From a virus, in the IMG/VR virus record IMGVR_UViG_3300021085_002355, positions 1 to 40,754 of that record: a DNA stretch of 40,754 bases; one strand, given 5' to 3'. The position numbers were made by a program, and so were the translations under genes. Within the stretch, counting starts at the first letter, position 1, and every line of letters begins with the position of its first letter. Below the pieces are notes generated by a model. The model saw only the letters and a program-made list of their open reading frames with translations, did no database searches and was not told where the DNA came from. Positions 5,703 to 24,149 of this stretch are shown one piece after another.

Positions 5703-6533
5703 TTAAGACTTAAACAACTCTTCAAAAGCAGCCTCTACGTCTTCAGTAGAAGTTGCGTTTGGTTTGCTTTGTTCAGAAGTTGCACTTGCAACCGTTGGTT
5801 GCTTCACTTCTGTCTGTGTTTCTTCAACAACCACTTCATCGGAAGATACCGATTCAGCAGGAGGAGCATCTTCTTCAGATTCTCCACTCACCCACTTTTC
5901 AAGTGCCTCTTTCAAATCATCGTAACTGAGTTCTTGGTAGATTTCAGTAATTTCTGCTTGATTGTTAGCAACTCCATCCGCAATATTTTTGTTTTCGGAT
6001 ACAGGTGATGTGTTGGGTTTAACACGAATGTTTGTCTTTGGAAATGAACGACCAGCCTCTTCAGCAGAAAGAAATTCAATTGTAATGTCTCTTCCGTTGG
6101 TTGGGTCGGTAATGTCTCCATAATCGGGGTCTGCGATGACACCTAGTAGTTCTTGGTAAACCTCTTTACCAAATCCCCAAAAACGAACTCCTTCTGCTTC
6201 TTCACCACGAACGATGACCGGAACGAAAGTTCTCATCTTTGGCATTAGGGAACGTCCCATGCGATAATCATCTTTATCTCCACTACGAGTCAACTTTTCT
6301 GCAAACTCTACGATTGGGTCAGGACGACCAAATGACTTGGGAGACAGATAAGTCCGATTGTTGATTCCATAGTGGAAAAACAACTCGATAAACGGATTAT
6401 CTGGTTGATGCTTGTAAGGCACGATACGAACCTGTTGCTTGCCAGGTTGGGGTTTCCATTGATAATTCTTACGATTGTTACTCTGAGAGAGGTTCGTAAG
6501 TTTTGCTTTGATTTTGTCTAGGTCAATTGCCAT
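5703..6533 (-). CDS. 32: Single-stranded DNA-binding protein, T4 gp32 family
   Basis: Coats single-stranded DNA at replication and recombination intermediates and coordinates UvsX, helicase and polymerase. It has 276 residues (T4 gp32 301). The N-terminal basic segment (MAIDLDKIKAKLTNL) would mediate cooperativity. The core contains an OB-fold-like stretch with many aromatics (FFHYGINNRTYLSPKSFG, VRFWGFGKEVYQELLG). The C-terminal third is a low-complexity acidic tail ending in EDVEAAFEELFKS, the typical partner-docking tail. There is no cysteine in the protein, so the T4-type zinc site is absent. A good Shine-Dalgarno (AAGGA, 7 bases before ATG) supports the start. Its own promoter lies 50-80 bases upstream. 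Confidence 0.93.
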   Translation of the reverse strand: MAIDLDKIKAKLTNLSQSNNRKNYQWKPQPGKQQVRIVPYKHQPDNPFIELFFHYGINNRTYLSPKSFGRPDPIVEFAEKLTRSGDKDDYRMGRSLMPKMRTFVPVIVRGEEAEGVRFWGFGKEVYQELLGVIADPDYGDITDPTNGRDITIEFLSAEEAGRSFPKTNIRVKPNTSPVSENKNIADGVANNQAEITEIYQELSYDDLKEALEKWVSGESEEDAPPAESVSSDEVVVEETQTEVKQPTVASATSEQSKPNATSTEDVEAAFEELFKS

Positions 6534-6627: not shown

Positions 6628-6858
6628 TTAAGAATTTTTTCCGTGATTTTCAACGAAATCGTAAAATTCAGCTGCAGTTGTCAATACATCCTGCGTAGTT
6701 GGAAGTGGTGGGATTTCGTATGGAATTTTATCAAATGTAGCATTATCTTTTGCTTCATTGTTTTCCATATGCCAAGAGTCCCAAACCATCTCTTTTGCGT
6801 TTTTTAATACTTCCAACCGAATGCCGTAGGCATCGTATTTTTTTGATTCATTATCCAT
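6628..6858 (-). CDS. Small conserved-looking protein of unknown function
   Basis: Encodes 76 residues, acidic and soluble, with a helical N-terminal half (RLEVLKNAKEMVWDSWHMENN) and a proline-rich linker (YEIPPLPTTQDV) leading into a helix (LTTAAEFYDFVENHG). Small proteins with this pattern, a helix followed by P-x-x-PT-x-EDV and a short helix, are familiar to me from T4-like marine phages near replication genes, but no function is known to me. It is preceded by its own sigma70-like promoter and sits just before the gene 32 promoter, so the two genes appear to be separate units. Confidence 0.75.
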   Translation of the reverse strand: MDNESKKYDAYGIRLEVLKNAKEMVWDSWHMENNEAKDNATFDKIPYEIPPLPTTQDVLTTAAEFYDFVENHGKNS

Positions 6859-6947: not shown

Positions 6948-7703
6948 TTATTTTTTACTCAATCGTTCGTTGCAAATTCGCACGGCATCGGCATTGATAT
7001 CACATCCTATAAAGTTGCGATTCAAAGACTTGGCAACTGCAAATGTAGTTCCACTGCCACAATAAAAATCAGCAACTACATCATTTTCATTACTACTTGC
7101 TTTAATGATTCTTTCTAAAATCTTAGGATGCTTCTCACTATAATAATCAGTTGCCTTCTTAACTTTCAGTCCTGATGGAATATCATCCCAAACATTTGTG
7201 GTATCGTTCCAATTTTTAATTTTTTCCTCAGTAATGTTTGGTCTATCTTGCTTCTTGCTAATGACCGATTTATACGGAACTCTTATATCAAGGTCATTGA
7301 AAATAAATTCATCGGACTTTGTATACACCACAATGTAGTCGTGTTTTTTTGCAAACTCTCGTTTACCTCTTCCACCGATATTGAATTTTACCACTATTTG
7401 ATTTCTAAAATTTTTGTATCCAAACACATTGTCCATAATCATACGAATCCAGTGGACTATACGTAAATCCATTTGTAAATAAATTGTTCCGTTGTTTTTT
7501 AACACTCGTTTCATTTCATTCAGACGAGGAACATAGTGAGATAAAATTACATTATGATCAGGTTCTAAGTCATGGTAGTCTTTAAACTTTTTACCCGTTC
7601 CGTATAAAATGTCACAATAAATTAAATTTATAGACTCGGTATCTATTCTACCAAGTAAATCTAAATTATCTAAATGATATATTTGATTTGTGCTTGGATT
7701 CAC
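6948..7703 (-). CDS. DNA adenine (N6) methyltransferase, beta-class type
   Basis: Predicted S-adenosylmethionine-dependent DNA methyltransferase of 251 residues. The SAM-binding motif I is DFYCGSGTT near residues 212-220, followed by FIGCDIN. The catalytic region precedes it, which is the beta-class order. The catalytic motif reads DILY (residues 31-34, in IYCDILYGTGKKF) where DPPY or DPPF is usual, yet the flanking GTGKKFKDY keeps the family pattern. The start is GTG at 7703, overlapping nothing and 3 bases after the spoVR stop, so it is probably the last gene of the prkA-yeaH-spoVR run. No restriction partner is adjacent. It may protect phage DNA or alter regulation. The target site cannot be predicted. 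Confidence 0.85.
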   Translation of the reverse strand: MNPSTNQIYHLDNLDLLGRIDTESINLIYCDILYGTGKKFKDYHDLEPDHNVILSHYVPRLNEMKRVLKNNGTIYLQMDLRIVHWIRMIMDNVFGYKNFRNQIVVKFNIGGRGKREFAKKHDYIVVYTKSDEFIFNDLDIRVPYKSVISKKQDRPNITEEKIKNWNDTTNVWDDIPSGLKVKKATDYYSEKHPKILERIIKASSNENDVVADFYCGSGTTFAVAKSLNRNFIGCDINADAVRICNERLSKK

Positions 7704-7706
7704 TTA

Positions 7707-9272
7707 TCAAACTTTACCACCTTCGTAACGTTTCATTTCTCCATTATTGTAACGATAACGAACTTCAACCTCAACGGTTTCTTTTTCTGTTCCATACCCT
7801 TCCGATTCTACATCATATGTAAGAATATTAATTGGTTTTTTGATAATTTCGTGCAGATATGCCATAGTACCTGTAGCATATTTGGTATCTAGTGGTCTTC
7901 CGTCAAAATCATGTCTGAGTAAAATTTCTGTATTTTTATATTTCATGTTCTCCATGTAAATAACAGGTCTTCCCATATTAACATGACGTTCAACTAATTT
8001 TTCTTTTATTTTTTTGTGATCTTTGCTCACAACCACATATTTGTTGGTTGATTTATCAAGTGCGTATTCAAAATATTCATATTTTTCACAGAAATCACGT
8101 GTAAAAAATTCATTAAGAAATGTTACATCGTTGTACATCTCACGAACTTCAAAAAGTTTTTCACGACCAAGACCGAGGTGTTTATTCCAATATCTTTTTT
8201 CATCTCCATTGTCGCAATTTTCGTACTCTTTACCAAACTTTCCTTTGTTCCAACGGTCTTCAATATCACGCAATAAAGTGTTTCCAAGTTTATATGGATT
8301 GTTCATATTGTACTTTCCACCAAGAACTCCTGCGTGGTGTTTTGCATAATCAAAAATTCCTTCGTCTCCGGCAAAGTTACAACTTGCCATGATATAAGAA
8401 TCCCAATAACTTGCCCAACCTTCGTTAAGAACTTTTGTCATTCCTTGTGGACGATAATAAATAGATTCATCACGAATCATACTGAGAATGTTTTGTTGCC
8501 AAGGTTCTAAACGACAATGATTGATAATCATCAACATAATATCTCGTTCAGGTCGCAGAGGAAATTTGTTTTCTGCTAACTTTGCACGTTCCTCTCTATC
8601 CCGTCTTTGCTTTTCAATGTAATGTGCAGGATTGACATACTTCTGCATATACTCTTTCGTTTCCATACGAGAAACGTGTTCACGTGGTTGACGGTCTTCA
8701 AAGTTGAACTTTGTTGCTTTCTTTAAATTACTTTCACGATAACAAAGTGATGGATCAATTAAATCATCAATAGCAAGAGCTGCGTTCAAAAAGTCTTTAA
8801 CTTTTTTGCGACCGAACCGATCCATATACATACGAATTTTATCACTATGATTTGCCATCACATTCATCATATTACGATTCGTGTGTTTGAACATAATATT
8901 ATTCTTAAAGAAATCACTATGTGCAGTTGCGTGTGCAACAACCGTTAAATTATCAACGATAGGATTGTTTCGTTGAAGGTACATATAAGTTGGATCGGTA
9001 TTTACAACCATCTCGTAAATCTTACCCATACCAGAGTGATACTGGTGATGAAGTTGTTCAAATTGTTGTCCGAAATTAAAATGAGGATAACGAACAGGAA
9101 ATCCACCATACGCCGCAATCTCTACAATTTCATCTGCATCAAATTCTTCAATGCACAACGGATACGGATCAAGTCCATTATCATAACACGCCTTTAGGCA
9201 TTCAGGTATAAGAGCTGCCAACTCTGGACACACTCCTTCGTTTAAACTATCTACTTCCCATGCAATTCCCAT
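7707..9272 (-). CDS. spoVR: SpoVR family protein (YcgB homologue)
   Basis: Encodes 521 residues, full length against E. coli YcgB (about 510). Hallmark SpoVR stretches are present: a YPHFNFGQQFEQLHHQY segment near residue 70, KIYEMVVNTDPTYMYLQRNN near residue 85-105, VVAHATAHSDFFKNN with its conserved histidines, and LNEGWASYWDSYIM near residue 285, a metalloprotease-like His-poor variant of the family core. B. subtilis SpoVR is linked to spore cortex formation, and the enterobacterial homologue to stationary-phase physiology; the biochemical activity is unknown. Its stop lies 3 bases before the methyltransferase start, and its start is 4 bases after yeaH. No truncation or frameshift is seen, so the gene looks functional in the phage. 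Confidence 0.95.
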   Translation of the reverse strand: MGIAWEVDSLNEGVCPELAALIPECLKACYDNGLDPYPLCIEEFDADEIVEIAAYGGFPVRYPHFNFGQQFEQLHHQYHSGMGKIYEMVVNTDPTYMYLQRNNPIVDNLTVVAHATAHSDFFKNNIMFKHTNRNMMNVMANHSDKIRMYMDRFGRKKVKDFLNAALAIDDLIDPSLCYRESNLKKATKFNFEDRQPREHVSRMETKEYMQKYVNPAHYIEKQRRDREERAKLAENKFPLRPERDIMLMIINHCRLEPWQQNILSMIRDESIYYRPQGMTKVLNEGWASYWDSYIMASCNFAGDEGIFDYAKHHAGVLGGKYNMNNPYKLGNTLLRDIEDRWNKGKFGKEYENCDNGDEKRYWNKHLGLGREKLFEVREMYNDVTFLNEFFTRDFCEKYEYFEYALDKSTNKYVVVSKDHKKIKEKLVERHVNMGRPVIYMENMKYKNTEILLRHDFDGRPLDTKYATGTMAYLHEIIKKPINILTYDVESEGYGTEKETVEVEVRYRYNNGEMKRYEGGKV

Positions 9273-9276
9273 AATA

Positions 9277-10431
9277 TTAAAAAGGTACTTCTTCGCCCGC
9301 AGGTGTCAGCAGTTTTTGTAATGTTTTAAATACATCTGCTTGTGAGTCCATCGAGGCAGTTACTATTGTTTTTGGATCAAGTTCTCCACTTGTTAATTTA
9401 GATTGAATATGTGGTAAAAATGTTGCCCAACTTCTAATTGCCTTTACTTCTGTAATTCCAATAAGATTTGCATATGTTTGCATTTTTGTTAAATAATCAA
9501 CACACAAATCATTATCAGAACCAAAGTTCTCCCCATCACTTAAATAAAATACATAAATGTTCCATTCGTTCAATGGAAATGCTTTTTCTACAATATCGTT
9601 GACTAAATGAAATGCACTACTAATTTGTGTTCCACCTCCACTTTTGTATTTGTAAAACTTTTCTTGATCAACTTCTTGGGCATGATGATCGTGTACAATA
9701 TATTTTACTTGAGTTTCTTGATAAAATCGTTGAACCCAGTTATCAAGATACCAACATAGTTCACGAATCAATGCACGTTTTGGTTCGTCCATACTTGCAG
9801 AGATGTCTGATACAAAAAATATGGCTGCATTCGTATCAGGTACTTCAACTGAACTCCAACTTCTAAATTCTTTATCATCTTTAATTGGATAAAAGTTGGA
9901 TAAATCGTCTGGATTGTAATCTTCTGATGAAATTAATCGTTTGAAAGCATTTTTGAGTGTTTTGCGTTTGTGAAGCAAACTATTGTTTCCAACCTTTGCA
10001 ATACGATTCCACTTTATTTTTTCTTTGACCATTTCCCCATTTTCCTTGGGAAGTAGATTCGGTAATTGAAGTTCTTCACCGATCATATCAAAGTAAGCAT
10101 CCATACTGATTCCTACATCAATTTCGTGACCTTCTCCTTCACCTTCTCCACCTTCACCAGGTTGTCCACCTTGTCCCTGACCTTGGGGAGGTCCTTCTCC
10201 TACTTCGTCTCCTACTTCTGCTTCTCCGTTACCGATACCACCTCCATCAGAAGGTTGTCCGTAACGAAAACTTGGAAGTTCTACATGAGGAACACGAACT
10301 ACTACAAAGTCTTTTCCTCTTCGTGTAACTCGTTGACCACCTTTAATGTGTTTTTTGAGTTTTTCGTCAACGTTTCCTTTGACGATATCTCTGTATTCAC
10401 CGTGGTCTTCTCGTATTCTACGTGATGGCAT
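9277..10431 (-). CDS. yeaH: YeaH-like protein, DUF444 with von Willebrand A domain
   Basis: Encodes 384 residues (E. coli YeaH about 427). The VWA domain begins near residue 203 with a complete MIDAS-type motif DISASM (D209, S211, S213), the threonine of GGGTQISSA at 268 and the aspartate of YLSDGENF near 299. This suggests divalent-metal-dependent protein binding. The N-terminal region keeps the basic RRIRE...RRGKDFVVVRVP pattern, then a glycine/glutamate-rich low-complexity linker (residues 63-103). In bacteria YeaH is encoded with the PrkA kinase and is thought to act with it. Here the prkA stop lies 20 bases upstream and spoVR begins 4 bases downstream, preserving the bacterial order prkA-yeaH-spoVR. 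No clear Shine-Dalgarno precedes its ATG. Confidence 0.95.
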   Translation of the reverse strand: MPSRRIREDHGEYRDIVKGNVDEKLKKHIKGGQRVTRRGKDFVVVRVPHVELPSFRYGQPSDGGGIGNGEAEVGDEVGEGPPQGQGQGGQPGEGGEGEGEGHEIDVGISMDAYFDMIGEELQLPNLLPKENGEMVKEKIKWNRIAKVGNNSLLHKRKTLKNAFKRLISSEDYNPDDLSNFYPIKDDKEFRSWSSVEVPDTNAAIFFVSDISASMDEPKRALIRELCWYLDNWVQRFYQETQVKYIVHDHHAQEVDQEKFYKYKSGGGTQISSAFHLVNDIVEKAFPLNEWNIYVFYLSDGENFGSDNDLCVDYLTKMQTYANLIGITEVKAIRSWATFLPHIQSKLTSGELDPKTIVTASMDSQADVFKTLQKLLTPAGEEVPF

Positions 10432-10451
10432 AATGATGTATTCGTTGACTA

Positions 10452-12554
10452 TTAATCTTCGTCTTCGTCTGCATCACCTCTCGCAAAAATACTTCCAACA
10501 TAGGTAAGAACATCCGAAGCACTATCATCGTCATATCCAAATGAAGTAATAAGACGTTGCTTTAATGCATCAATTTTTTCAAGAAGTTCTTTGTCAACAA
10601 CAGTTGCAGTATCTTGAGCAAGAGCCGATAACTTAATGCTATCTTTAGTATCTTCAAACAACTTCTTTTCAAGTGCTTTGTATAACTGCTCATTAGAGTC
10701 GTATTTAAACTCTTTACCCTTGGCGGCAAGTCCACCCATGTAATTCATAATTTCTCTACGGAAATCGTCCTTCATGCCATTGGAAATACCAATCTTTTCT
10801 TCAATACTACGCATAAGTTGTTCATTGGCAACTTCTTCTTTACCAGTAACTTGGTTTGTAACCTTTTCGTCTTGAATATACGCAACGATGTTATCAATAT
10901 AATTGGTGCAAGTTGCTTTTATTGCTTCTTCACTGCTACTAAGTGCTTGTTGTACTTCTCGTTTCACAATTCTATCATATTCCTTTTCAACTGATTCGAG
11001 ACGTTCCATCAAATTCTTTTTATCGTCTTCACTATTGAATCCACTATAACTTTTAAGTCCCTCACGAATTTGTGCAAACAACATAAATGGATTTAGACTT
11101 TTAGCACCCATTCTTGGATTAACGATTGCATTAGAAAATTGATTCTGAATGAATCGTGCTGATACTCCACCATATAATCCCTCTTTTGGTGATTCATCTT
11201 GCATTTCTTTTACGTGTTCATCCGTGAATCCGTGTACACTTTGACCATTGTAAAGTTTTGCTTTTTGAATGATGCTCATATCTTGCTTGGAACTTTCTTC
11301 TAAACGACTTACAACTGCGAATAGTGCAGCCAAATAAGTTGTATGAGGAGCAATATGCTTGTTTACGGTACTTGTATTATAGAAGTGATCATATATTTTC
11401 TTTTCTTCATCAATTTTCAAAAGATAAGGAATATCAATCTTAATAGTTCTATCACGAAGTGCTTCCATGAATTTGTTATTTGTTAACTTCTCAAACTCAG
11501 CATTATTGGTATGACCAAGAATAACTTCATCAATGGGTACTTGATTAAAACGACGTGGTTTAACACGATGTTCTTGAGTAGCACCCAACAAATCATATAA
11601 AAACTCAGTTTGAAGTTTAAGAATTTCTTGGAATTCTATAAGTCCACGATTTGATACTAAAAATTCACCATCAAAATCAAATGCACGGGGGTCACTTTCA
11701 CTTCCGTATTCTGCTAACTTGCGATAATTAATATCACCTGTTAACTCGGTTGCATCTTGTGATTTTTCGTCTTTTGGTTGAAAAGTACCGATACCGACAC
11801 GATTCTTTTCGGATATAGTCACACGACGTATAACAATATGGTCTAGTACCTTACGATAATCACCACCATGTAGTTCCATGAGTTGGTTATAGTAAAACTC
11901 ATTAACTGGATTCAGTGCACCATCTAATTTTATCTTATAGTCATCTGCATCACGTGATGCATTAAGATTATCTATAATTTGATTACGAATATCATCAGGA
12001 AGAAGTTTTAAAGGTTCTTCATTCATGGGACATGGAACTACAGTGTCGTTTCCGTCTTTATCGGTGAGTTTCCAACTGAACGAATATAAAGCACCTTCGT
12101 CTGTTTGTGTATATGCCTCAAGACCTTTTTTAAGGGCAGTTACGATTGTTGACTTACTACTACCGACTGGTCCGTGTAGCAAAATAACTCGTCTTTCTGG
12201 ACCATAATGCCGACTTGCACTTTTTAATATGTCCATAAATTCCATTAGATTTTCTTCAAGACCATAAATGGAAATGTCACCAAGACCTTCAAAAAATTTA
12301 TACTTAACGTGCTTGCGTTTGCAGTATGTGAACTCTTCTGTTCCATGTGACATTACCATATCATAAAGTCTTTGGTATGAGTTTCTCGCAACACTTGGAT
12401 TTTGTTCTATCATTGCGATATAATCCCAAAATGTACCGGTCCAATTTAAAGACTCGTATGTATTTACTGCATCTTCGTTATCAGACTTTATCAAGGATTC
12501 GAGGGTGCTTACTCTGTCTTCCTTATTTTGTTTTTGTCGTTTTTTATTTTCCAT
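10452..12554 (-). CDS. prkA: PrkA (YeaG) AAA+ serine protein kinase
   Basis: Encodes about 700 residues, slightly longer than E. coli YeaG (644). The N-terminus has the PrkA signature WTGTFWDYIAMIEQNPSVAR followed by YKFFEGLGDISIYGLEENL. An AAA+ nucleotide site GPVGSSKST lies at residues 128-136. The segment VILGHTNNAEFEKLTNNK matches the family sensor/Walker B neighbourhood, and the C-terminal 300 residues correspond to the helical PrkA kinase domain. PrkA homologues are induced by nitrogen starvation or stationary phase in bacteria, and both kinase and AAA+ protease-like roles have been proposed. I prefer the second ATG (12554), because AAGG sits 8 bases before it but only 2 bases before the ATG at 12560. 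First gene of the prkA-yeaH-spoVR-methyltransferase run. Confidence 0.95.
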   Translation of the reverse strand: MENKKRQKQNKEDRVSTLESLIKSDNEDAVNTYESLNWTGTFWDYIAMIEQNPSVARNSYQRLYDMVMSHGTEEFTYCKRKHVKYKFFEGLGDISIYGLEENLMEFMDILKSASRHYGPERRVILLHGPVGSSKSTIVTALKKGLEAYTQTDEGALYSFSWKLTDKDGNDTVVPCPMNEEPLKLLPDDIRNQIIDNLNASRDADDYKIKLDGALNPVNEFYYNQLMELHGGDYRKVLDHIVIRRVTISEKNRVGIGTFQPKDEKSQDATELTGDINYRKLAEYGSESDPRAFDFDGEFLVSNRGLIEFQEILKLQTEFLYDLLGATQEHRVKPRRFNQVPIDEVILGHTNNAEFEKLTNNKFMEALRDRTIKIDIPYLLKIDEEKKIYDHFYNTSTVNKHIAPHTTYLAALFAVVSRLEESSKQDMSIIQKAKLYNGQSVHGFTDEHVKEMQDESPKEGLYGGVSARFIQNQFSNAIVNPRMGAKSLNPFMLFAQIREGLKSYSGFNSEDDKKNLMERLESVEKEYDRIVKREVQQALSSSEEAIKATCTNYIDNIVAYIQDEKVTNQVTGKEEVANEQLMRSIEEKIGISNGMKDDFRREIMNYMGGLAAKGKEFKYDSNEQLYKALEKKLFEDTKDSIKLSALAQDTATVVDKELLEKIDALKQRLITSFGYDDDSASDVLTYVGSIFARGDADEDED

Positions 12555-12598: not shown

Positions 12599-12994
12599 TT
12601 AAACTTTTTTAATATTATACAGACGGGTGCTGACTTCACGATACGAATCACCATCTACAAGTAGTATTTTATTTTTATACAGGTTCCAGTCTATAACAAA
12701 GTTGTTATTTAATATGCCATTATTAAGTTTTTTTATCAAAGCATTTAATGAGTTAATTGTATATAGAGTATTTGAATCTTTTTTCCGGTGGACACTTATT
12801 GTATTTTTGTAAAAATTACTAGTATTAAATGTATCTTGATTAATGTTATATGTCAACATCAAACTATTTAAATCATCTATATCCTGTAGTATAAAAATCT
12901 TATCAAACACAATATCGTAATATTTCTTTATCGATTCTAATTCTGCATCATAAGAATGCATATCAGTAAATGTGCAAAGTAGTTTTGTTTTCAT
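12599..12994 (-). CDS. Hypothetical protein, 131 aa
   Basis: Not recognised with a function. A compact mixed alpha/beta protein beginning MKTKLLCTFTDMHSYDAEL, with a helical stretch (LESIKKYYDIVFDKIFILQD), a central ISVHRKKDSNTLYTINSLNALIKKLNNG segment and a C-terminal FVIDWNLYKNKILLVDGD strand pair. The HRKK...NTLYTINALN pattern resembles an uncharacterised small protein I associate with T4-like marine phages (memory of a family pattern, not a search). A good AAAGG ribosome site lies 9 bases before the ATG. It sits between the polymerase-like gene and prkA, 44 bases from the latter, so it could share the prkA transcript. Confidence 0.8.
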   Translation of the reverse strand: MKTKLLCTFTDMHSYDAELESIKKYYDIVFDKIFILQDIDDLNSLMLTYNINQDTFNTSNFYKNTISVHRKKDSNTLYTINSLNALIKKLNNGILNNNFVIDWNLYKNKILLVDGDSYREVSTRLYNIKKV

Positions 12995-13039: not shown

Positions 13040-14326
13040 TTAAATTTGCTTCATGTCACCGTAGTTACGACCCATATATGTGCGAACAGGATACTTATCG
13101 TTTGATGTAATTATAGGTTGCATTTCTTTAATTAACTTGAACTCACTTTTGTGCACATCAAATAAAAAAGCATCGTATGTATAAAGTATCATTTTTGACT
13201 TTGATGTTTTAAGATAGTTATTTAGTTTCAATATGACTTCGCAATTTTTTTCAGTTTCTGCTGATTGTAGTAAGTAATTAAACACTTTATATGAATTAAT
13301 TTTGTCACCAAAGAATACAGAAGCAATTTTTCGTTTATAATACCAGGTTTCAACATAACTGTTTTTATTGTAAAAATTCCAAACCGAATCTACATATTCT
13401 GATATTCGTTTCATAAACGGTACGTTGTTCTTTACATCATCTGTAATTCCACCGTATATTAAATTAAACGTGATTTTTTTAGATAGTTCGTATTCTTCTT
13501 CGGTTAATTCATCTTTTCCATGATACAGTTTTCCAAGATATTCATGTAAAGACGTTTTGGGTAGATCATAATTAAGAAAGTTTGCCAACAATCTCAGATG
13601 GTAACTTTCATAATCAACCATAATCAACAATCCATCGTCACCAAATCTACTTGTAAAACAATCTCGTTGACCCGTCTTTTTGTTCAATGCAGCGTAATTA
13701 ACATTACCAAATGCGTTACTTGGACGACCCGTTGGAGTCATCATATTATATTGACTAAAAACTAATTTATTTTTATCCACAAGAGTTTGTTTACCCAATT
13801 TAAAGTTTTCAACATACATTCCATTTTTCTCTATATCATACAATGCACAAGAAAAATCGTTTTCATATTTAAGTAAGTTGGGTTCATATCTGATGTCACC
13901 AATTGAATAGCACAACTTTTTAAAATGCTTCAATAAAACCATAATAGGGACTGATCTAAAATCGCTTACTTTAGAATCTACATAAGTGTTACTAATTTCA
14001 ACTTTAGATGATAAATACGAACAAACCATAGCATCATGTGAGTTTTTAATCTCATCAACATGATATTTTAATTTTTTTCTGTCAAAAATTACCTTCTTTC
14101 CCGTTGACTTGAAAATTAAATTAAGAAAATCATTTGGGATATTTACCGAATCTGGATGTTCAAACGAAACTATGTAATATTTATCGTTTACATTTACCAT
14201 CAGTGCAAGAGGTGAGTTTTTGCATACATGGGTATTTGGTTTGGTATAATACACATTAATGATACTAGAGTATTCATTTAACAAAGAAAGTAAATTCTTT
14301 GCATCTGTAGGAGTTTCTATAAACAT
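13040..14326 (-). CDS. Divergent family A DNA polymerase-like protein (no 5' nuclease domain)
   Basis: Encodes 428 residues if started at the ATG at 14326; the frame can be extended to a TTG at 14365. Polymerase I-type palm and finger motifs are in order (numbered from the TTG): TPTGRPSNAFGNVNYAALNK (210-229), motif A VDYESYHLRLLANF with D251, motif B KKITFNLIYGG (296-306), and motif C region LYTYDAFLFD with D398. Motif C is normally HDE, here YDA, so the second carboxylate is missing at that position. The N-terminal 170 residues resemble a reduced 3'-5' exonuclease fold without clear catalytic acids. T4 relatives usually use family B gp43, so this may be an accessory enzyme or a replacement. 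It lies between baseplate and prkA genes, away from the other replication genes. Confidence 0.8.
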   Translation of the reverse strand: MFIETPTDAKNLLSLLNEYSSIINVYYTKPNTHVCKNSPLALMVNVNDKYYIVSFEHPDSVNIPNDFLNLIFKSTGKKVIFDRKKLKYHVDEIKNSHDAMVCSYLSSKVEISNTYVDSKVSDFRSVPIMVLLKHFKKLCYSIGDIRYEPNLLKYENDFSCALYDIEKNGMYVENFKLGKQTLVDKNKLVFSQYNMMTPTGRPSNAFGNVNYAALNKKTGQRDCFTSRFGDDGLLIMVDYESYHLRLLANFLNYDLPKTSLHEYLGKLYHGKDELTEEEYELSKKITFNLIYGGITDDVKNNVPFMKRISEYVDSVWNFYNKNSYVETWYYKRKIASVFFGDKINSYKVFNYLLQSAETEKNCEVILKLNNYLKTSKSKMILYTYDAFLFDVHKSEFKLIKEMQPIITSNDKYPVRTYMGRNYGDMKQI

Positions 14327-14342
14327 ATATAAAGATATTATA

Positions 14343-14762
14343 TTATATATCTCTATAAAATTCAAGTGGATTATTCAAAACTAAAGATATACCCGTAATA
14401 CGTTTGGTGGCTTTGGAAATAGACTTTAAATTAAATTCTCTAACTCCGAGGATTTTACCATCTTGTGTATCAGTTGTTTCAAGTTTTCCTTTTATTTTCC
14501 ACAAAATTGTAATGCATAAATAAAATGGATTTTTTTGTATGGTGTTAAATTGATTCAAATCTACTTCGTATATAGTAGATGTTTCTGAATTTCGTTTTTT
14601 AACAAAATACCTTTGAATATATTCATTTTCGTAATTTATGTCAGAAATTTTTGGTTTCTTTGAAATTGGATGTGTGAAAATAATACCATCTAGTTTCCCA
14701 CGATTTTTTGTAAGAGCAGAATATAAACTATTCATGTAAATGTTTTCATCTTCGTTTTTCAT
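14343..14762 (-). CDS. Conserved-looking hypothetical protein, 139 aa
   Basis: Function not recognised. The protein is lysine-rich and soluble with a YSALTKNRGKLDGIIFTHP start, an ENEYIQRYFVKKRNSETSTIYEVD central segment, and NPFYLCITILWKIKG, which look like alternating beta strands. The pattern TKN-x(4)-GIIFT-P...YIQRYF resembles an uncharacterised protein of marine T4-like phages (recollection only). It starts 4 bases after the hub-like gene and is therefore the last gene of the baseplate operon, which would suggest a virion or assembly role. Confidence 0.78.
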   Translation of the reverse strand: MKNEDENIYMNSLYSALTKNRGKLDGIIFTHPISKKPKISDINYENEYIQRYFVKKRNSETSTIYEVDLNQFNTIQKNPFYLCITILWKIKGKLETTDTQDGKILGVREFNLKSISKATKRITGISLVLNNPLEFYRDI

Positions 14763-14766
14763 ATTG

Positions 14767-17700
14767 TTAACCCGGATAATAATGTGATTCTATTGTAGTT
14801 GACCAATCACCATCTCCGATAGTGTGCTTTACACCCGTAATTGCAAATATTCCGTTATTGAAATATTTAACAGGAACACCCGCACAATTAAATGTATCAT
14901 ATAATCGCAATCCCTCGATGCCATCTAATGTTATTGAAAGGTCTACACCCGGAAGTGGCATATTATTAATTACATTATTATGTGGATTTGGATCAGATTC
15001 GCAGAATTTTTTCATTCGACTAACATCTGTATCTACAAGTTCAATTTGGATTTCAAAATCATTTTTGTCTGTTCCATATGAATCATCGTGTATTTTAATG
15101 CTTGATCGTGTAACTGACATATTTTTGCTAAATCCGTCTTTGTCGGTACCGTTCGCACCGTGGTATGTTAATAGTTCTTGTTTATCTAGGTAGTCTGTGG
15201 ATAAATTGTTGTCTTTTATATGTTTTTTTAGTCGGTCTGGTAATTTATCTTCAAAATCATCGTTTCCATGTCTTTTCTTTGTTGCGTGATATGTTTGCAA
15301 TGCACCCTCATTTAATCCCGTTTCTTCTCCTTTAAGTTCTTGTAAATGAACTAAATATGGATATTCAGTTTTATCTGATCCAGGATATACAGACGCAGAC
15401 ACAATCATATATTTTTTATCTTCAGGTTCAAGTTGACCAGATTCTACAAATACATCGTCAGTCCAAAAACCATCATAATCATCGTAATCAATTACCTTTC
15501 CTATTAAATACTTAGGAAATCTATCAGGATATTTTGTAATTGTATCACCTCCACCAGCATTTGCTTCAAAGACCAAGTTACCTTTAAAGGTTTTTGAATT
15601 AGTTGATCCTTCTAATCCTTGTTTCGTTCCTACCTTATTTACAAAGTCACCATCTACTTGTATTTGATATGTTCTTGGTTGTTTTATATCCCCACCTCCA
15701 GATGAACTTGCATATGCGGTTTTTTCTTTTTCTATGTTTGCATTTTTTCCTGTTCGGATAGTTCTTTCTGCTTTCTCTTTTTTTGCTTTTTCTATATTGT
15801 CTAACAATTCTTGACGATTTCCTCCTCTTAGGATGATTGGTTTACCGTCTTTGTAGTAAACCATATCATATTTGCCAATTGTTGTATCGGGTTTTCCATC
15901 CGATCCTTTAATTTTATCAGTAGACGGATATACCGGCCAACTTGACTCCGAAGCATTCTCTATACCAAAATATTTACTAGAAGCCGCAACTATGTACTTT
16001 TCAGGATCTTCCATATTTTTAGGTTTGTCATCAATATTTTCAATCTGTTTAGTGTAGTTTTCATATGGATTTTCAGCACCTTGTAATATCAAGTCTTGAT
16101 CTTCCTTTGCAAAGAATCCATTTTTCTTATCCATATTACCAAACACTATCATTGATGCCATTTCCGAAGATGGTTCTACACTCAAATCCATTTCTCTTAC
16201 TATACTATCACCACGATGCGAAGGAAATACCCATGCATCCATTTTCTGATTTAAAACTGCTTCTGATCCTGAAAAGTTTTGATCAACTAAACCAAGAACT
16301 GAGTTTGAAGATGTATTCACATCATCACCTACCACGGCAAATTTCCACATATTACCACCCGCAGTTGAAACTTTTTTCATTATATCAAGTAAAATAGCAG
16401 TTGCATTGTCTCCGTTCTCAAACGACTCTGTAATTGTATCTAAACTTACATATAAATCCTGAATTCGTCCCGAATATCCCATCGTATTTCCTTCGTTGAT
16501 ATCCGAGTGAAAATCCGGAAACGGTTTTACGGTATCTTCAGCTTCTTCCCATGTCAATTCTTTTTTGATTTCTGCGTCTTTTCCAAGCCTTGCTAAGTGT
16601 TGTAAATTGTATCCGGATGTTGATTTTACCGTAAGTATACGATGCAAGTCATCACGTGGACTTTCTTTCATTGCCTCTTCTAATGTCCTTGCCTCAGAAA
16701 CTCCCTCAGGATTCATACTTTTTAGTATATCAATAAAATTTTGAGTTGTTTCTCGGTATGCACCACGTTCATGATCGTTTTCTCCTTTTTTAAGAACAGA
16801 AAATCCAGAACCTCCTTTTTTACTTCCGTCTGAATTTATACGAGATACGGTTGAACCGTGATATGTTTCTTTGTTCCATCTAGGTGCAACAGAATTTGGT
16901 ATAAGTAGCACACTACCATCAACAGATTTTATATTAGGATGAGCAACGCATCTGTTACCATAACATGAAAATTGACATATCCGAGTACCTGCCTCTGCTA
17001 CTCGTCTGAAAAATATATTAAATATATCAATTAAGTATCCGACCGTAATGTATGTTCCACCATTTGAATTAGATTTTCCTGCCATAAACGGTTTTGCAGA
17101 ATTATATTTATTGAAAGTAAAATACCTTCCTCTTGCAATTCTATATGCCTCTTGTTCAGCTGCTCCTAAGTCTACAGAACCTCCCGATCCAGTTACACTT
17201 TCCATAATTTTTTGGTCTTCTGGATCAAGACCATCATTAATAGTTGCTCCTACATCATTTTTACCCATCAATGAACGTCTTAATGTGGTATTAATAAATG
17301 TTTTTATATCAATGTATTTATTACTTTCTTTTTTTGGTTTGGCTCCAGTTTGATTCAGTATTTGCTGACCCACTTCTGACATACATGAAATTTGTATTGT
17401 GCAATCATATCCTCCGTCTTCACGAATAGAATAATTAAAACTTGTAATTAGTCCCATTGCAAATCCATAGTTACCAAGACCCTTTCTTAAATGCGTTGAA
17501 GCTGCAGGTGGGGGTGGTCCTTCGTTGTTATTTTTCCAATCTTCTGAAACTATACTTTCTTCATTATTCCATATACGATGAATTTTTCTATATCCATCCG
17601 GTGATAAGTCTAATAAGGAATCACGTGGATATGTGTTCCAACCCCACTCTACTATCATAGTCATCCCAGGTTGAAAAAAATATGGTTGTAAATAATCTAA

Positions 17701-18369
17701 TTGCGCCTGACTCCAGCAGGTGAAATTTATTGTGGTTTTTCTAAAGTTTTTACCCGGTTCTATATCTTCAGATTCTATGCTTGTTAATCCAGGAGATGGA
17801 CGAAACTTATAATCAGGTTCTTCTATTTCGTGTCGTTTAGGTTCTTCGTTTTCTCCAGATGTTGTATATCCAAGTAATGTATTTGCTTCACCACCTCCAC
17901 CGTTTGTTCCATCCCCACGATCAAATCCGTATGTATCATGAAAGTTTCCGTTTCCTCCCAATACGAATCCATTCATTGTCTCTTTCGTGATTGGATTTTC
18001 CACAATGGCACTTGATACAACTCTTGCCCACGAAGTTTTTGGTCCTTTGTATGTATTATTATCCCAATCCACAAGTGCATCGGTATCTTGAGATTTAACT
18101 GCACTGTATCCACCATTTGCATAACGATTTCCATTTTTATCTTCACCAACTAAATCTCTTGCCGAAGAATTGGATGCTTCTCCTCCCGTAGTGTGTGTAT
18201 AATTTAAACCAAAATTTCTCCATCGATTTAAAAATTCTTCACGTACCCATTGACGTATATGATTTCGACACGGAAATTGTAAAGTGTTTGCTCGGGCCCA
18301 ATCCCGTTCCATAGCAAAATCAACTGGTTGATCATTTACATCTCCGTCTAAACTAATAGGACCCTTCAT
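14767..18369 (-). CDS. Large baseplate hub-like structural protein, 1200 aa
   Basis: Predicted virion protein of the central baseplate. Recognisable stretches are FTCWSQAQLDYLQPYFFQPG followed by MTMIVEWGW (about residues 220-260), a pattern I know from large baseplate proteins of non-T4 myoviruses. The C-terminus (about 1140-1196) has PGVDLSITLDGIEGLRLYD and GIFAITGVKHTIGDGDWSTT, which is like the final domain of gp27/late-control-D hub proteins, where a G-I-F-x-I-T-x-V-x-H-x-I motif precedes a W-x-T strand. The middle 800 residues are divergent, with a charged coiled-coil-like segment near 840-880. The length is roughly three times T4 gp27 (391), so extra domains or a hub fusion are likely. 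It begins at an ATG overlapping the stop of a 20-codon ORF. The exact T4 equivalent is uncertain. Confidence 0.75.
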   Translation of the reverse strand: MKGPISLDGDVNDQPVDFAMERDWARANTLQFPCRNHIRQWVREEFLNRWRNFGLNYTHTTGGEASNSSARDLVGEDKNGNRYANGGYSAVKSQDTDALVDWDNNTYKGPKTSWARVVSSAIVENPITKETMNGFVLGGNGNFHDTYGFDRGDGTNGGGGEANTLLGYTTSGENEEPKRHEIEEPDYKFRPSPGLTSIESEDIEPGKNFRKTTINFTCWSQAQLDYLQPYFFQPGMTMIVEWGWNTYPRDSLLDLSPDGYRKIHRIWNNEESIVSEDWKNNNEGPPPPAASTHLRKGLGNYGFAMGLITSFNYSIREDGGYDCTIQISCMSEVGQQILNQTGAKPKKESNKYIDIKTFINTTLRRSLMGKNDVGATINDGLDPEDQKIMESVTGSGGSVDLGAAEQEAYRIARGRYFTFNKYNSAKPFMAGKSNSNGGTYITVGYLIDIFNIFFRRVAEAGTRICQFSCYGNRCVAHPNIKSVDGSVLLIPNSVAPRWNKETYHGSTVSRINSDGSKKGGSGFSVLKKGENDHERGAYRETTQNFIDILKSMNPEGVSEARTLEEAMKESPRDDLHRILTVKSTSGYNLQHLARLGKDAEIKKELTWEEAEDTVKPFPDFHSDINEGNTMGYSGRIQDLYVSLDTITESFENGDNATAILLDIMKKVSTAGGNMWKFAVVGDDVNTSSNSVLGLVDQNFSGSEAVLNQKMDAWVFPSHRGDSIVREMDLSVEPSSEMASMIVFGNMDKKNGFFAKEDQDLILQGAENPYENYTKQIENIDDKPKNMEDPEKYIVAASSKYFGIENASESSWPVYPSTDKIKGSDGKPDTTIGKYDMVYYKDGKPIILRGGNRQELLDNIEKAKKEKAERTIRTGKNANIEKEKTAYASSSGGGDIKQPRTYQIQVDGDFVNKVGTKQGLEGSTNSKTFKGNLVFEANAGGGDTITKYPDRFPKYLIGKVIDYDDYDGFWTDDVFVESGQLEPEDKKYMIVSASVYPGSDKTEYPYLVHLQELKGEETGLNEGALQTYHATKKRHGNDDFEDKLPDRLKKHIKDNNLSTDYLDKQELLTYHGANGTDKDGFSKNMSVTRSSIKIHDDSYGTDKNDFEIQIELVDTDVSRMKKFCESDPNPHNNVINNMPLPGVDLSITLDGIEGLRLYDTFNCAGVPVKYFNNGIFAITGVKHTIGDGDWSTTIESHYYPG

Positions 18370-18428
18370 CTGTTGAGTGCCTTTCGTTGATATCTATTCA
18401 TATCCTCCGTGTTAATATTAGTGTCCAT
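18366..18428 (-). CDS. 20-codon mini-ORF bridging the gp53-like and hub-like genes
   Basis: The start ATG overlaps the preceding stop as TAATG, and its TGA stop overlaps the hub ATG as ATGA, so a ribosome could pass through all three frames without leaving the message. The peptide begins MDTNINTEDMNRYQ and is hydrophilic. It may be a translational-coupling leader or a genuine micro-protein. The perfect overlap at both ends is the main support. Confidence 0.4.
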   Translation of the reverse strand: MDTNINTEDMNRYQRKALNR

Positions 18429-18721
18429 TAAATTCCATTTATTCTGTTATACTCAGCTATTATCATATTTATATCACGTGGAATTCTAATTTGCGAGCCT
18501 AATTTAGCAAACATTGTTCCTTTGATATTATTTGCAGATGCTATAATCCACCAATAATTTGGATTTCCGTAGAATTTATGTGCTAAGTGGTCTAATCGGG
18601 TTTTCTCGACCATTAATACGAATGTATCAGAACTTTTTTTTCTAACGGTTGGTAAAATAGAAGTGGATACAATGGTATTTCCATCTTCGTCTGTTTTGGT
18701 TGGTATTGTTTTGTATCTCAT
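18428..18721 (-). CDS. 53: LysM-like baseplate wedge protein, gp53-like
   Basis: Encodes 97 residues. The core RLDHLAHKFYGNPNYWWIIA followed by NNI and a closing SQIRIP is the LysM-like pattern (D-x-L-A-x-K-x-Y-G-x-P-x-Y-W-W-x-I-x-x-A-N) found in gp53 of T4 and in small LysM baseplate proteins of other contractile phages, where it joins wedge to hub rather than binding peptidoglycan. T4 gp53 is 196 residues, so this is a minimal version. It is tightly packed, starting 2 bases after the stop of the 1806-residue gene. The function is inferred from motif and context. Confidence 0.75.
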   Translation of the reverse strand: MRYKTIPTKTDEDGNTIVSTSILPTVRKKSSDTFVLMVEKTRLDHLAHKFYGNPNYWWIIASANNIKGTMFAKLGSQIRIPRDINMIIAEYNRINGI

Positions 18722-18723
18722 AA

Positions 18724-21700
18724 TTAAAAATCTGATGATTCCTCTGCGTTTAATAAAGCAGTTTCTTCTTCAGTCAACCACCAACGTTTATGATATTTTA
18801 TCTTCAGATCGTAATCGTCTTTGTAACCATTTAAATTACGTTGTTGCGATGCCATTAGGTTGTCAGGAAGTGTTCTATCATTTACGTCATCTGGTCTATG
18901 ACCAGGTGGTGTTGTAACTGATCCCATTGATATACGAGTTTGTGCAATGTATAATACACCATTGTGAAATACTTTATTTGAAATTATTGCTCGTTCACCG
19001 GGACAATTTGCTAATTTAGGATCATTGACGTATTGGGATTTGTATGAATCGGTTGGATTCCACGTTGGTATGTATTTCATTGTTATATATGCTTCACGTT
19101 CATCTCCCGTAAGTGAGTTTCCTTTATTTAGTATGAATGTGTTTTCTTCAATATTTGCTACATCAGTTTCTTTTCCGTCAAAAACTACTTTCATACACAT
19201 TCCTGTATCCTCGTCGAAAATACTGTAATTGTATTGTGCAGTTGATACATCAATTCCTTTTTTACACGCAAGATACGTTGCCACTTCTTTTCTCCATAAT
19301 TTTTTAACATCATCTTTTTGTGTGCTAAATTTAGATGATTTAATTTTACACCACCTCGGGTCGGATAAAAATAACTCAACTGGTTTAGGAGCATCTTCAC
19401 ATCCCTCGTTTGATTGAGATGTAGGTGTTGCTGGAATTGAAGTACCATCTTTAATTTCTACCGTATGAGTTCCAACTTCTGATGATCTTATTACGACATT
19501 CTCAGAACGACCACCCGCAAAAGTAGATTTTGATTCTTCTGCGGTTACTGATATTTCATAAAGTCCATCTTCAAGTGCTAGTAAAGGTTTTGCTTCAGTT
19601 TTATCAGAATATTGAATTATTCCATAGTCTTCAACGGTAACCCATCCATATGATCTTGAAGAAGCACTTGCTTTTACTTTTCTTAATGTTACTTTGTATT
19701 TATTTGCTCCTGAAATTGGTGACCATTTCCATATTGGTTTTGAATTATCGGTGGGAGTTTGAGAATGTGGATTTGGTGCTCTCAATGGTTCATCTGGATC
19801 ATCAGCAGATTCTGCACCCTTTGCAGAACCATCTTCGTTTGGACCACATCCCATATTAAACTCACCTTTATATTTAGCAGGTTCATTTCCAATATATTCT
19901 CCGTTCAATCTAGTTGGATGGCCATCTTCTCCGTTTACTCCCAAACTTGTTAGTGTGTCTCCCGCATACATCCATTTCATTTGATTCTGCTCATATACAG
20001 TTACTGCTCCGTACTTATTAGTTGACCAAGATACTTTATCCGGATCAGCAGGATAAGTCAAATTACCCATATCTTCTTTTGCTACAATGTATGCCATTAC
20101 ATCACCGATCCACATTTTTATGTTTCGTTCAATTGCTTGTTTTATTCCATCGTCAACTTGACTTATTTCGTTTGAAAATGGATCAGCAACTTCAAATCCT
20201 ATCAATCTACCATGTGAATCTTTTTCTCCTTCACTACCTACCTTGTACGGACACTTTGGTGGTTTTGGTGGAACTACTCGTTTGTCAATTTTAACTTCAT
20301 GTATTCCTTTTGTTGACCAATCTGTTCCTGTTCCTGACTTATTTGGTGCACCTGCTTTTACTTCAATTGTATGTAATCCTGAACTCAATTTTATAGGTTT
20401 ATCTTTGTCATCAGTTGGTGTGTAAGAAGTTTTCTTTGTTACGACAGTTTTTCCTTTAAAATACACTTCGTACATTTCAGCACCTTTTACAGGATCCCAT
20501 GTCCAAGTTGGTGTTTTGTTAGGGGTTGGTGTATCAGTCGTTGGTTTTGGTTCGGGTACTATATTTTTAGGAGGTTCTGGATCATCATTCGAGTTACTTC
20601 CATCATCCACAAATTCAATTTTTTCAAGTACATGATCCTTTACCCAAGGAATAAAATGTAATTGCGATGATTTATTATCAAAATAATATCCAAGTTCAAG
20701 AGGTGCACTGTCATCTTTTTCTATTTCTTTATTAAATTTGATCAACTCTGCTTCTTTTTGTCTTATTTTATTTTCTAAAGATTCAACATCAGATTCTTCC
20801 ATTGCAGATTTATCAGCATTGGTCAATTTTCTATCACTTGCAAGATCACGATATTTTTCGTCTGCGTTCCTGATGTCATCATCCGTTGTTCCTTCTAATA
20901 TTATCAGATAGTTTTCAAGTTGAATTAATGTATATTTTTTATCAGTAATTAAATTCCACTTATCTGAGATAATTTGTTGCAAACGTGAATCTTGCATTCT
21001 ATTTGATATTTTTTCTTTTTGGAAGCGATTCCAGTTGCCGATTGGTTCATAATCTAATACACGTTTATTGGGATCACGAAGTTGAGCAGTTAAATTATTA
21101 ATTTTTAAAAGCTTTTGTTTAAGTCTTTCTATTTCTTGTTGTCGTAACCGAGTTTCATCACGATCTAATTTATCTGCTTTTTCCTGATCTGTGTTCATTT
21201 CTGTTCCAGTTCCACCTGCTCCTTGGAGTTCAGATGTCCTACCACCACCAAATGTTTCACCATTTAATGACCAAAACTGTTCAAATATGTAATCTGCGAT
21301 TTCATTCTCAATGTTTCTATCGGCAGCTAAACCTGATATTTTTTCCTTTGTTTTACTAACAAGTGCGTAAAATCCAAATTTTAATTCAGCATATTTTTTA
21401 CCCTCTCCGAGTTTTAATTGATCAGATACGTCGTTATTAACTTCATAATTTACATAGTCTGTTGTACCAGGATACACTTTATGACCTTTGATCATTTTGT
21501 CGCGATCTTCTTCATATGGAATGTAATATAACTCATCATTTTCTATTACAGTACCTTTGTGTTCTTTTCGTGTAAGGTCACCGTATTTTTTAAGGCCTCG
21601 TGTTCCTACATTACCAGGAGCAGAAAATGTATCGTTCATTCGTTTTGATACAAATTCCGCAAGAAGAGTTTTGACTTGATTTACATTATTATAGTTGTCG

Positions 21701-24144: not shown

Positions 24145-24149
24145 AACAA

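Follow-up and report, generated by a model that had tools for sequence, protein, structure and literature searches.

The IMG/VR virus record IMGVR_UViG_3300021085_002355, analysed here at its complete length of 40,754 bases (hereafter the window), carries an intact prkA-yeaH-spoVR gene trio on its minus strand. In bacteria, these three genes make up a widespread operon, which is induced by stress where it has been studied and whose biochemical function is still debated. The phage-borne trio is inherited as a unit, is under purifying selection, and recurs in separate phage lineages. Its most probable interpretation, to which we assign a probability of roughly 0.55, is that of a captured and functional bacterial operon acting as an ATP-driven protein-remodelling machine.

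An intact and co-inherited module

Each of the three proteins belongs firmly to its family. PrkA matches the AAA_PrkA profile (PF08298) over positions 2–357 of 358 (E-value 4.7e-86, 289.5 bits, cut-off 25) and the C-terminal profile PF06798 over positions 1–255 of 255 (3.1e-70, 237.2 bits, cut-off 25). YeaH matches PF04285 (1.5e-65, 222.4 bits, cut-off 27) in two stretches, the best of which spans profile positions 226–416 of 418, while SpoVR matches PF04293 over positions 7–405 of 407 (7.3e-108, 361.3 bits, cut-off 27). The genes follow one another almost without gaps: 20 nucleotides separate PrkA from YeaH, 4 separate YeaH from SpoVR, and 3 separate SpoVR from a methyltransferase gene. An initial annotation, made from the sequence alone, had described a whole module with full-length family signatures in bacterial gene order. 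The profile searches bear this out and reassign none of the proteins to another family. Of the span given there, 7707–12554, the start stands and the end is corrected to 12560.

The three genes also stay together in related loci. Window PrkA has 161 relatives in IMG/VR, 80 of which were kept. The full trio is present in 76 of these 80 loci, always ordered PrkA-YeaH-SpoVR, and the four exceptions are contigs cut off within PrkA or shortly past it. Loci selected by YeaH or by SpoVR, in sets that overlap with the PrkA-selected one, hold all three genes in order in 75 of 80 cases each, and the incomplete loci are explained by contig ends, except on one contig, present in both sets, that is considered below.

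Phylogeny points in the same direction. Separate PrkA, YeaH, and SpoVR trees were built from the 66 loci that remained when 183 complete ones were dereplicated (quick IQ-TREE runs with SH-aLRT support, unrooted). The three gene trees agree, and the trio therefore travels as a unit. Between genes, the patristic distances among 27 phage rows show correlations of 0.80–0.88, a level that none of 999 permutations attained, and the three genes have thus moved together. The correlation is 0.54–0.72 inside the wider phage group (defined below) alone and 0.31–0.61 for 11 bacterial rows.

Selection on the module was estimated from the ratio of non-synonymous to synonymous substitution rates (dN/dS) among 14 members of the window clade (13 for DnaB). 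Median values are 0.061 for PrkA, 0.065 for YeaH, and 0.051 for SpoVR, as compared with 0.051 for gp32, 0.070 for UvsX, and 0.063 for DnaB. They are higher in the methyltransferase (0.095), a 131-residue open reading frame (ORF; 0.178), and PolA (0.253). With synonymous sites close to saturation, these values are rough, while their ranking is still informative. The module is under purifying selection comparable to that on gp32 or UvsX. The initial annotation had given more weight to the whole module than to any one member, and that emphasis is justified by the joint inheritance, joint conservation, and selection seen for the trio in phages.

Probable repeated capture by phages

The window clade consists of the 32 of 80 PrkA-selected loci that have the window's flanking genes; these are not all independent because some are near-identical (for example, L022 and L023). 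Together with a wider phage group, which includes the uncultured 595-kb phage LR756511 (PrkA identity 49.7%), the window group forms one clade with SH-aLRT support of 98 for PrkA, 99 for YeaH, and 93 for SpoVR. Its bacterial neighbours belong to Myxococcota, Planctomycetota, Chloroflexota, and other groups. Bacterial PrkA is 52–56% identical at closest among the best 80 matches listed, and the PrkA and YeaH trees leave the branching order of the bacterial group beside the phage clade unresolved. A recent bacterial donor was rejected on these grounds, and none can be named.

All three genes are also found in LR756511 and in three other uncultured huge phages, LR745206, LR756502, and LR756504 (634–642 kb), which carry the E. 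coli type at 61–65% identity to Enterobacter YeaG. The Thermus phages phiYS40, TMA, YS40_Isch, MN1, phiLo, and Lalka8/27a/27b likewise hold the three genes together, some of them already labelled serine kinase, SpoVR, vWA, or conserved bacterial protein. They differ from the window in gene order, which is YeaH-SpoVR-PrkA in the four regions fetched, and their PrkA, about 29–33% identical to the window's, falls in a separate clade.

A single phage origin of all phage modules is rejected for PrkA by the approximately unbiased (AU) test, whether the window lineage is joined with the 634–642 kb phages (p-AU 1.5e-39) or with the Thermus phages (p-AU 5.8e-8), for groups that were picked after the tree was seen and with Thermus branches that are long. 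If transfer ran from bacteria to phages, a direction that we infer and of which unrooted trees give no proof, the whole trio has been captured by phages at least three times: by the lineage of the window and the wider group, by the 634–642 kb phages, and by the Thermus phages. The second of these captures is counted from the three 634–642 kb records; IMG/VR contigs with the gamma type were not counted as proven phages. Of 121 such contigs, 80 were kept, comprising 65 with the full trio, 10 with PrkA and YeaH, and 5 with PrkA alone. Among 25 contigs searched (24 gamma-type and L085), none passed the sheath cut-off and seven, L085 included, had a terminase match. L085 itself, a viral contig of 39,560 bases, has its trio outside the phage clade and near bacterial proteins, and perhaps represents another capture.

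The Ralstonia jumbo phage RsoM2USA may be a further case, with SpoVR (ORF28) and PrkA (ORF30) two ORFs apart (PMC8504454). The accessible part of that source names homologues from Vibrio and Alcanivorax, offers no treatment of a module, and does not contain the word 'YeaH'; the RsoM2USA genome was not among the phage-collection records matched. Enterobacter phage LAU1 was set aside, since its YeaG and YeaH lie at the record's very end, are accompanied by no SpoVR match, and are probably host flank. Bacillus phage CM1 encodes a YeaH-like vWA protein, with no PrkA or SpoVR match in the record.

The bacterial prkA-yeaH/yhbH-spoVR operon shares with the window its Pfam families, its conserved residues and, where the genes are clustered, their order. 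Examples include R. etli CH02817-02815, Thermomicrobium, Sinorhizobium, and E. coli, which has yeaG-yeaH with ycgB elsewhere and whose YeaG is about 27% identical to window PrkA. Unlike these, the window's trio is phage-borne and lies within a replication cluster. The same gene order is found in 54 of 80 bacterial loci; the other 26 comprise 13 with PrkA alone, 8 with PrkA-YeaH, 4 that are divergent (one without SpoVR), and 1 with another order. Many incomplete bacterial loci are cut by contig ends, while the long L097, L145, and L159 hold PrkA alone.

A putative ATP-driven machine

Residues expected of an ATPase are strictly conserved in PrkA. Across 71 aligned sequences, G130, P131, V132, G133, K136, and S137 of the Walker A motif are identical in all, S134 is found in 67 and S135 in 50, and E309, E312, K315, H350, N352, E366, D370, and R371 are also identical in all 71. 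Window PrkA sits in one tree with bacterial PrkA, and a 2026 study of a B. anthracis homologue describes an AAA+ protein that forms ATP-dependent oligomers (PMC13001217).

YeaH, a von Willebrand A (vWA) domain protein, has a metal ion-dependent adhesion site (MIDAS) motif whose D209, S211, and S213 are identical in all 73 aligned sequences. Its AlphaFold2 model has a mean predicted local distance difference test (pLDDT) score of 83.6, and the Foldseek matches of this model are vWA domains, with the MIDAS domains of Rea1 and MDN1 among the 50 listed. AAA+ proteins of the MoxR type are known to pair with vWA proteins, as in RavA-ViaA, CbbQ-CbbO, and NorQ-NorD. These pairs and Rea1/Midasin, in which an AAA+ ATPase is combined with a MIDAS-bearing vWA partner, provide a working analogy for PrkA and YeaH. 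In contrast to the MoxR-type pairs, PrkA forms an AAA+ family of its own, marked by a distinct C-terminal domain, and SpoVR would be a third partner.

In SpoVR (AlphaFold2 model, mean pLDDT 85.6), H64, E87, H114, H118, E284, G285, and A287 are invariant in 67 aligned rows. Some SpoVR genes carry inteins, as judged by junction pattern, in phages (L056, L058, L063, L074, L075, L076, L078, and L087) as well as in bacteria (L102, L113, L125, L146, L153, and L162). The inteins lie after the VVN of KIYEMVVN in the phage loci L058, L075, L076, L078, and L087, with an intein Pfam match in L075, L076, and L087, and within NEGWA/S in both phages and bacteria; L076 and L078 carry them at both sites. A Pfam search of six intein-bearing SpoVR proteins found the intein domain in all six (three scores being just under the curated cut-off) and a homing-endonuclease domain in five. 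Inteins tend to sit at active sites. Given their placement at invariant motifs, KIYEMVVN and NEGWA therefore probably form an active site in SpoVR.

These features can be combined into a possible mechanism. A bacterial operon would have been captured and fixed between two genes of a T4-like phage replication cluster, with which it is probably transcribed. PrkA would act as an ATP-driven AAA+ ring, and YeaH as its vWA/MIDAS partner that docks the target, while SpoVR would contribute active-site-like motifs, possibly as a metal-dependent hydrolase or as an inactive descendant of one. Together, they may act on a host or phage protein, by remodelling or processing it, under restricted growth, and a starved or stressed cell might thereby stay productive for the phage. 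A benefit in starved cells is plausible because such operons are controlled by stress and nitrogen in bacteria, as reported for the R. etli operon (PMC3188799) and for prkA and a spoVR-like gene of B. cenocepacia (PMC5491218). For R. etli, the reported features are a three-gene operon, the most strongly ppGpp-induced gene of the array, and sigma-N dependence (PMC3188799), and yeaG, yeaH, and ycgB are listed among upregulated stress hubs (PMC9501238). The literature thus contains the bacterial association with starvation or stationary phase to which the initial annotation appealed. A broader and more tentative proposal is that unrelated large-phage lineages independently recruited the operon as one machine that acts on proteins without phosphorylating them, with an AAA+ motor, a vWA docking protein, and an active-site subunit (SpoVR, perhaps a divergent metal-dependent hydrolase), which would be run with DNA replication and keep infection productive in slow-growing cells.

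Several observations weigh against a remodelling machine of this kind. The three genes are not always together: a single contig of 13,440 bases (L416 and L455) has YeaH-SpoVR with no PrkA within the 8 kb fetched upstream, and in the 642-kb LR756502 (L008 and L009), SpoVR lies about 243 kb from PrkA-YeaH. A scan for promoters and terminators gave chance-level results (34 sites versus 39.8 expected, and 1 versus 2.8 expected), and gene order by itself does not show co-transcription. For PrkA, the B. anthracis study instead puts forward scaffold or competitive-inhibitor roles (PMC13001217). For SpoVR, zinc metallopeptidases occupy the nine best VIA-align rows, with Z from 8.6 to 4.4 (among them LTA4H at 8.6 and 8.4, IRAP at 7.5, AnCE at 5.1, lethal factor, and BepA), which counts in favour of the machine. 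The tool itself warns, however, that values of Z below 8, or for helical folds below about 13, may be noise; VIA-align re-aligned only Foldseek's own candidates, and the Foldseek search of the model gave nothing at E<=0.001. The SpoVR motif reads H-[AV]-x-[GA]-H, with the glutamate of HExxH replaced by Ala or Val, and an hhalign profile comparison with E. coli PepN, which has HExxH at 297, found nothing (probability 0.6%). All 102 long-type phage rows and all 54 bacterial rows have the spacing HxxxH, while gamma-type SpoVR has HxxxxH in 57 of 67, HxxxH in 6, and other arrangements in 4, and the Thermus phages have HxxxH in 1 and others in 2. A zincin-like SpoVR is therefore a weak lead, as Z falls within the tool's noise, the glutamate is gone, PepN does not align, and the histidine spacing varies. 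Finally, a ClpP-family gene, whose place after SpoVR in many wider-group loci (see below) speaks for the machine, lies beside the module in none of 28 window-clade loci and is found elsewhere in only 2 of 10 window-clade contigs searched.

Alternative functions

A less probable explanation than the remodelling machine is an ATP-dependent protease, in which PrkA itself unfolds and degrades substrates or feeds a ClpP-like or SpoVR-type protease. Protease activity has been claimed for B. subtilis PrkA, as reported in PMC13001217, and the VIA rows for SpoVR are zincin-like. In addition, among the 36 wider-group phage loci with at least 1.5 kb of sequence beyond SpoVR, 21 have a same-strand ClpP-family protease gene no more than 1.5 kb downstream of it. 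In the three of these loci that were examined (L052:13278-13988, L077:13135-13827, and L069:13128-13829), a DNA polymerase gene lies just past it. However, cleanly purified B. anthracis PrkA is reported to be without protease activity (PMC13001217), and both the lack of a ClpP neighbour in the window clade and the lost glutamate of SpoVR count against this explanation too.

The initial annotation had instead proposed that the phage imposes or mimics starvation by phosphorylation, with PrkA as a serine kinase and YeaH and SpoVR as its regulators. This is somewhat more doubtful again than a protease. It draws on the family name, on in vitro phosphorylation reported earlier for B. subtilis and E. 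coli PrkA (cited in PMC3188799), on the stress and nitrogen control described above, and on the only solved relative of PrkA at E<=0.001 (9xip/9xiq/9xir, E 4.3e-211), which was deposited as 'Serine protein kinase'. The B. anthracis study moreover claims 11 motifs typical of Hanks kinases in the C-terminal part of PrkA and cites older kinase or protease claims for B. subtilis PrkA. The same study, however, found kinase and protease activity to be negligible in the B. anthracis homologue and reports no kinase P-loop (PMC13001217), and an R. etli prkA mutant was described as having no clear stress phenotype (PMC3188799). In window PrkA, Walker A is present, and five crude Hanks-type patterns (G-loop, HRD, DFG, and two more) found no match. 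A phosphorylation programme is thus unsupported, and because kinase-like motifs and older kinase claims exist, a kinase role is best described as disputed. No test of a starvation-mimicking phage module was found in the literature searched.

It is also improbable that the module serves persistence, with spoVR-type genes helping the phage to enter or keep a dormant host state. This idea derives from marine viral spoVR, which was reported earlier, was read as a sporulation gene, and was the most abundant sporulation-related viral gene in an oxygen minimum zone (PMC8940887). Yet the gene content of the window phage is T4-like, and scans of 19 window proteins with Pfam and 20 with PHROGs named no integrase. 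Nor is the family confined to spore formers: the nearest bacterial relatives, from the best 80 matches listed, are the Myxococcota, Planctomycetota, Chloroflexota, and others noted above, many of which are not known as endospore formers, and E. coli has the family too.

The probable insertion site

Loci without the module reveal where it resides. Window UvsX has at least 583 relatives, and 80 of these loci were retrieved, including 60 at 60–63% identity in which the replication gene order is the same as far as the contigs reach. Module genes occur in none of these 60 in the stretch fetched. The 131-residue ORF and gp32 are both held by 37 of them with no module in between, and in 8 of the 37, the two frames lie 62–104 bp apart. 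From this empty site in 37 relatives, it follows that the module, the methyltransferase, and a 76-residue ORF look like an insertion between the 131-residue ORF and gp32 in one phage lineage.

Within the window clade, 29 of 32 loci span both junctions of the insertion, the remaining three end inside or just after PrkA, and the GC and GC3 of the module genes match the phage background. An assembly chimera or recent passenger, produced by the joining of a phage contig with a bacterial operon, is suggested by the bacterial families of the proteins and can be dismissed almost entirely, as the same junctions recur across these IMG/VR loci, GC, GC3, and low dN/dS resemble those of phage genes, and bacterial PrkA is so distant among the matches listed. 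The observation of a phage-owned module, which a chimera would have undone, accordingly stands.

Not all close relatives share this location. In L040, L041, L044, and L046, PrkA is 74–77% identical to the window's, and none of the window's neighbour genes is present in the stretch fetched; the module is therefore located elsewhere there. A NeuB-family gene follows the module in L044. In the window-clade member L024 (80,388 bases), YeaH, SpoVR, and DnaB are split into several frames, perhaps by sequencing errors.

Genomic context and neighbouring genes

According to Pfam and PHROGs, one side of the module is occupied by gp32, UvsX, a 5'-3' exonuclease, and a DnaB-type helicase. On the other side are the 131-residue ORF and a small PolA-family polymerase, followed by baseplate, sheath, and head-tail genes. 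The location between phage replication and tail genes, as first annotated, is thereby confirmed. The description as 'T4-like' holds in a broad sense. A search of 10 window-clade contigs, which did not include the window, found the major capsid protein Gp23 in 9. Both the window and all 10 of these contigs have a sheath domain match, although the score of one contig falls below the family cut-off. The window itself has gp32, UvsX, a helicase, and sheath. None of its 19 scanned proteins has a Pfam match to Gp23, which is attributed to the window on the basis of its relatives. Gp23 is found in 3 and a sheath match in 7 of 12 wider-group contigs searched. The description fails for the polymerase: the T4 DNA polymerase is a family-B enzyme, unlike the PolA-like enzyme of the window. 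This small polymerase (441 residues, 13040–14365) stands in a T4-like gene neighbourhood and evolves at a far higher rate than most of the genes around it (dN/dS about 0.25).

The methyltransferase adjoins the module in 29 of 32 window-clade loci, with the other three ending in or just after PrkA. It was rejected as a fourth module gene since it adjoins the module in the window clade only; L007 has weak methyltransferase matches between YeaH and SpoVR. Three very long ORFs (1200, 1806, and 2123 residues) fill positions 14767–30521 between the polymerase and the tail genes, and the 1200-residue protein has no Pfam or PHROG match. Genes of the psbA/psbD type were found in none of 13 records searched, which does not exclude a cyanobacterial host. 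The top-ranked UvsX match among phage records is Microcystis phage Mel-JY01 (51.6%), a phage that is absent from the phage records with a PrkA match.

Table 1. Module genes, conserved motifs, and neighbouring genes in the window.
Feature	Position	Strand	Basis
PrkA, AAA+ ATPase with PrkA C-terminal domain, 702 aa	10452..12560	-	Pfam
PrkA Walker A GPVGSSKS, residues 130-137	12150..12173	-	Alignment of 71 sequences
YeaH / DUF444, von Willebrand A domain protein, 384 aa	9277..10431	-	Pfam, AlphaFold2, Foldseek
YeaH MIDAS motif D209-x-S-x-S213	9793..9807	-	Alignment of 73 sequences
SpoVR (YcgB family), 521 aa	7707..9272	-	Pfam, AlphaFold2
SpoVR KIYEMVVN, residues 84-91, intein site in relatives	9000..9023	-	E87, V89, N91 invariant in 67 rows
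SpoVR HxxxH motif, H114 and H118	8919..8933	-	Both His in 67/67 rows
SpoVR E284-G-W-A287 of NEGWA motif, intein site in relatives	8412..8423	-	E284, G285, A287 in 67/67 rows
N6/N4 DNA methyltransferase, 3 nt after SpoVR, conserved clade neighbour	6948..7703	-	Pfam
76-aa ORF between methyltransferase and gp32, kept in clade	6628..6858	-	Clade comparison
gp32 single-strand DNA binding protein, distal flank of insertion	5703..6533	-	Pfam, PHROGs
131-aa ORF, proximal flank of insertion; in related phages precedes gp32 without module	12599..12994	-	Comparison with UvsX-selected loci

Implications for phage and bacterial biology

The protein families are already known, and phage copies have been annotated gene by gene. 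No account of the whole trio recurring as a module in phages was found in a literature search that covered few subscription journals, and PMC10294663 contains no spoVR, prkA, yhbH, or ycgB. Separate captures combined with purifying selection are strong evidence that the trio acts as one unit, and that this unit repays its cost during infection. The module-bearing Thermus phages were isolated on laboratory hosts, which makes direct tests feasible. If the trio is indeed one machine, phage genetics would reveal the substrate of a widespread bacterial stress system, and phages may thus offer a route to the function of the operon.

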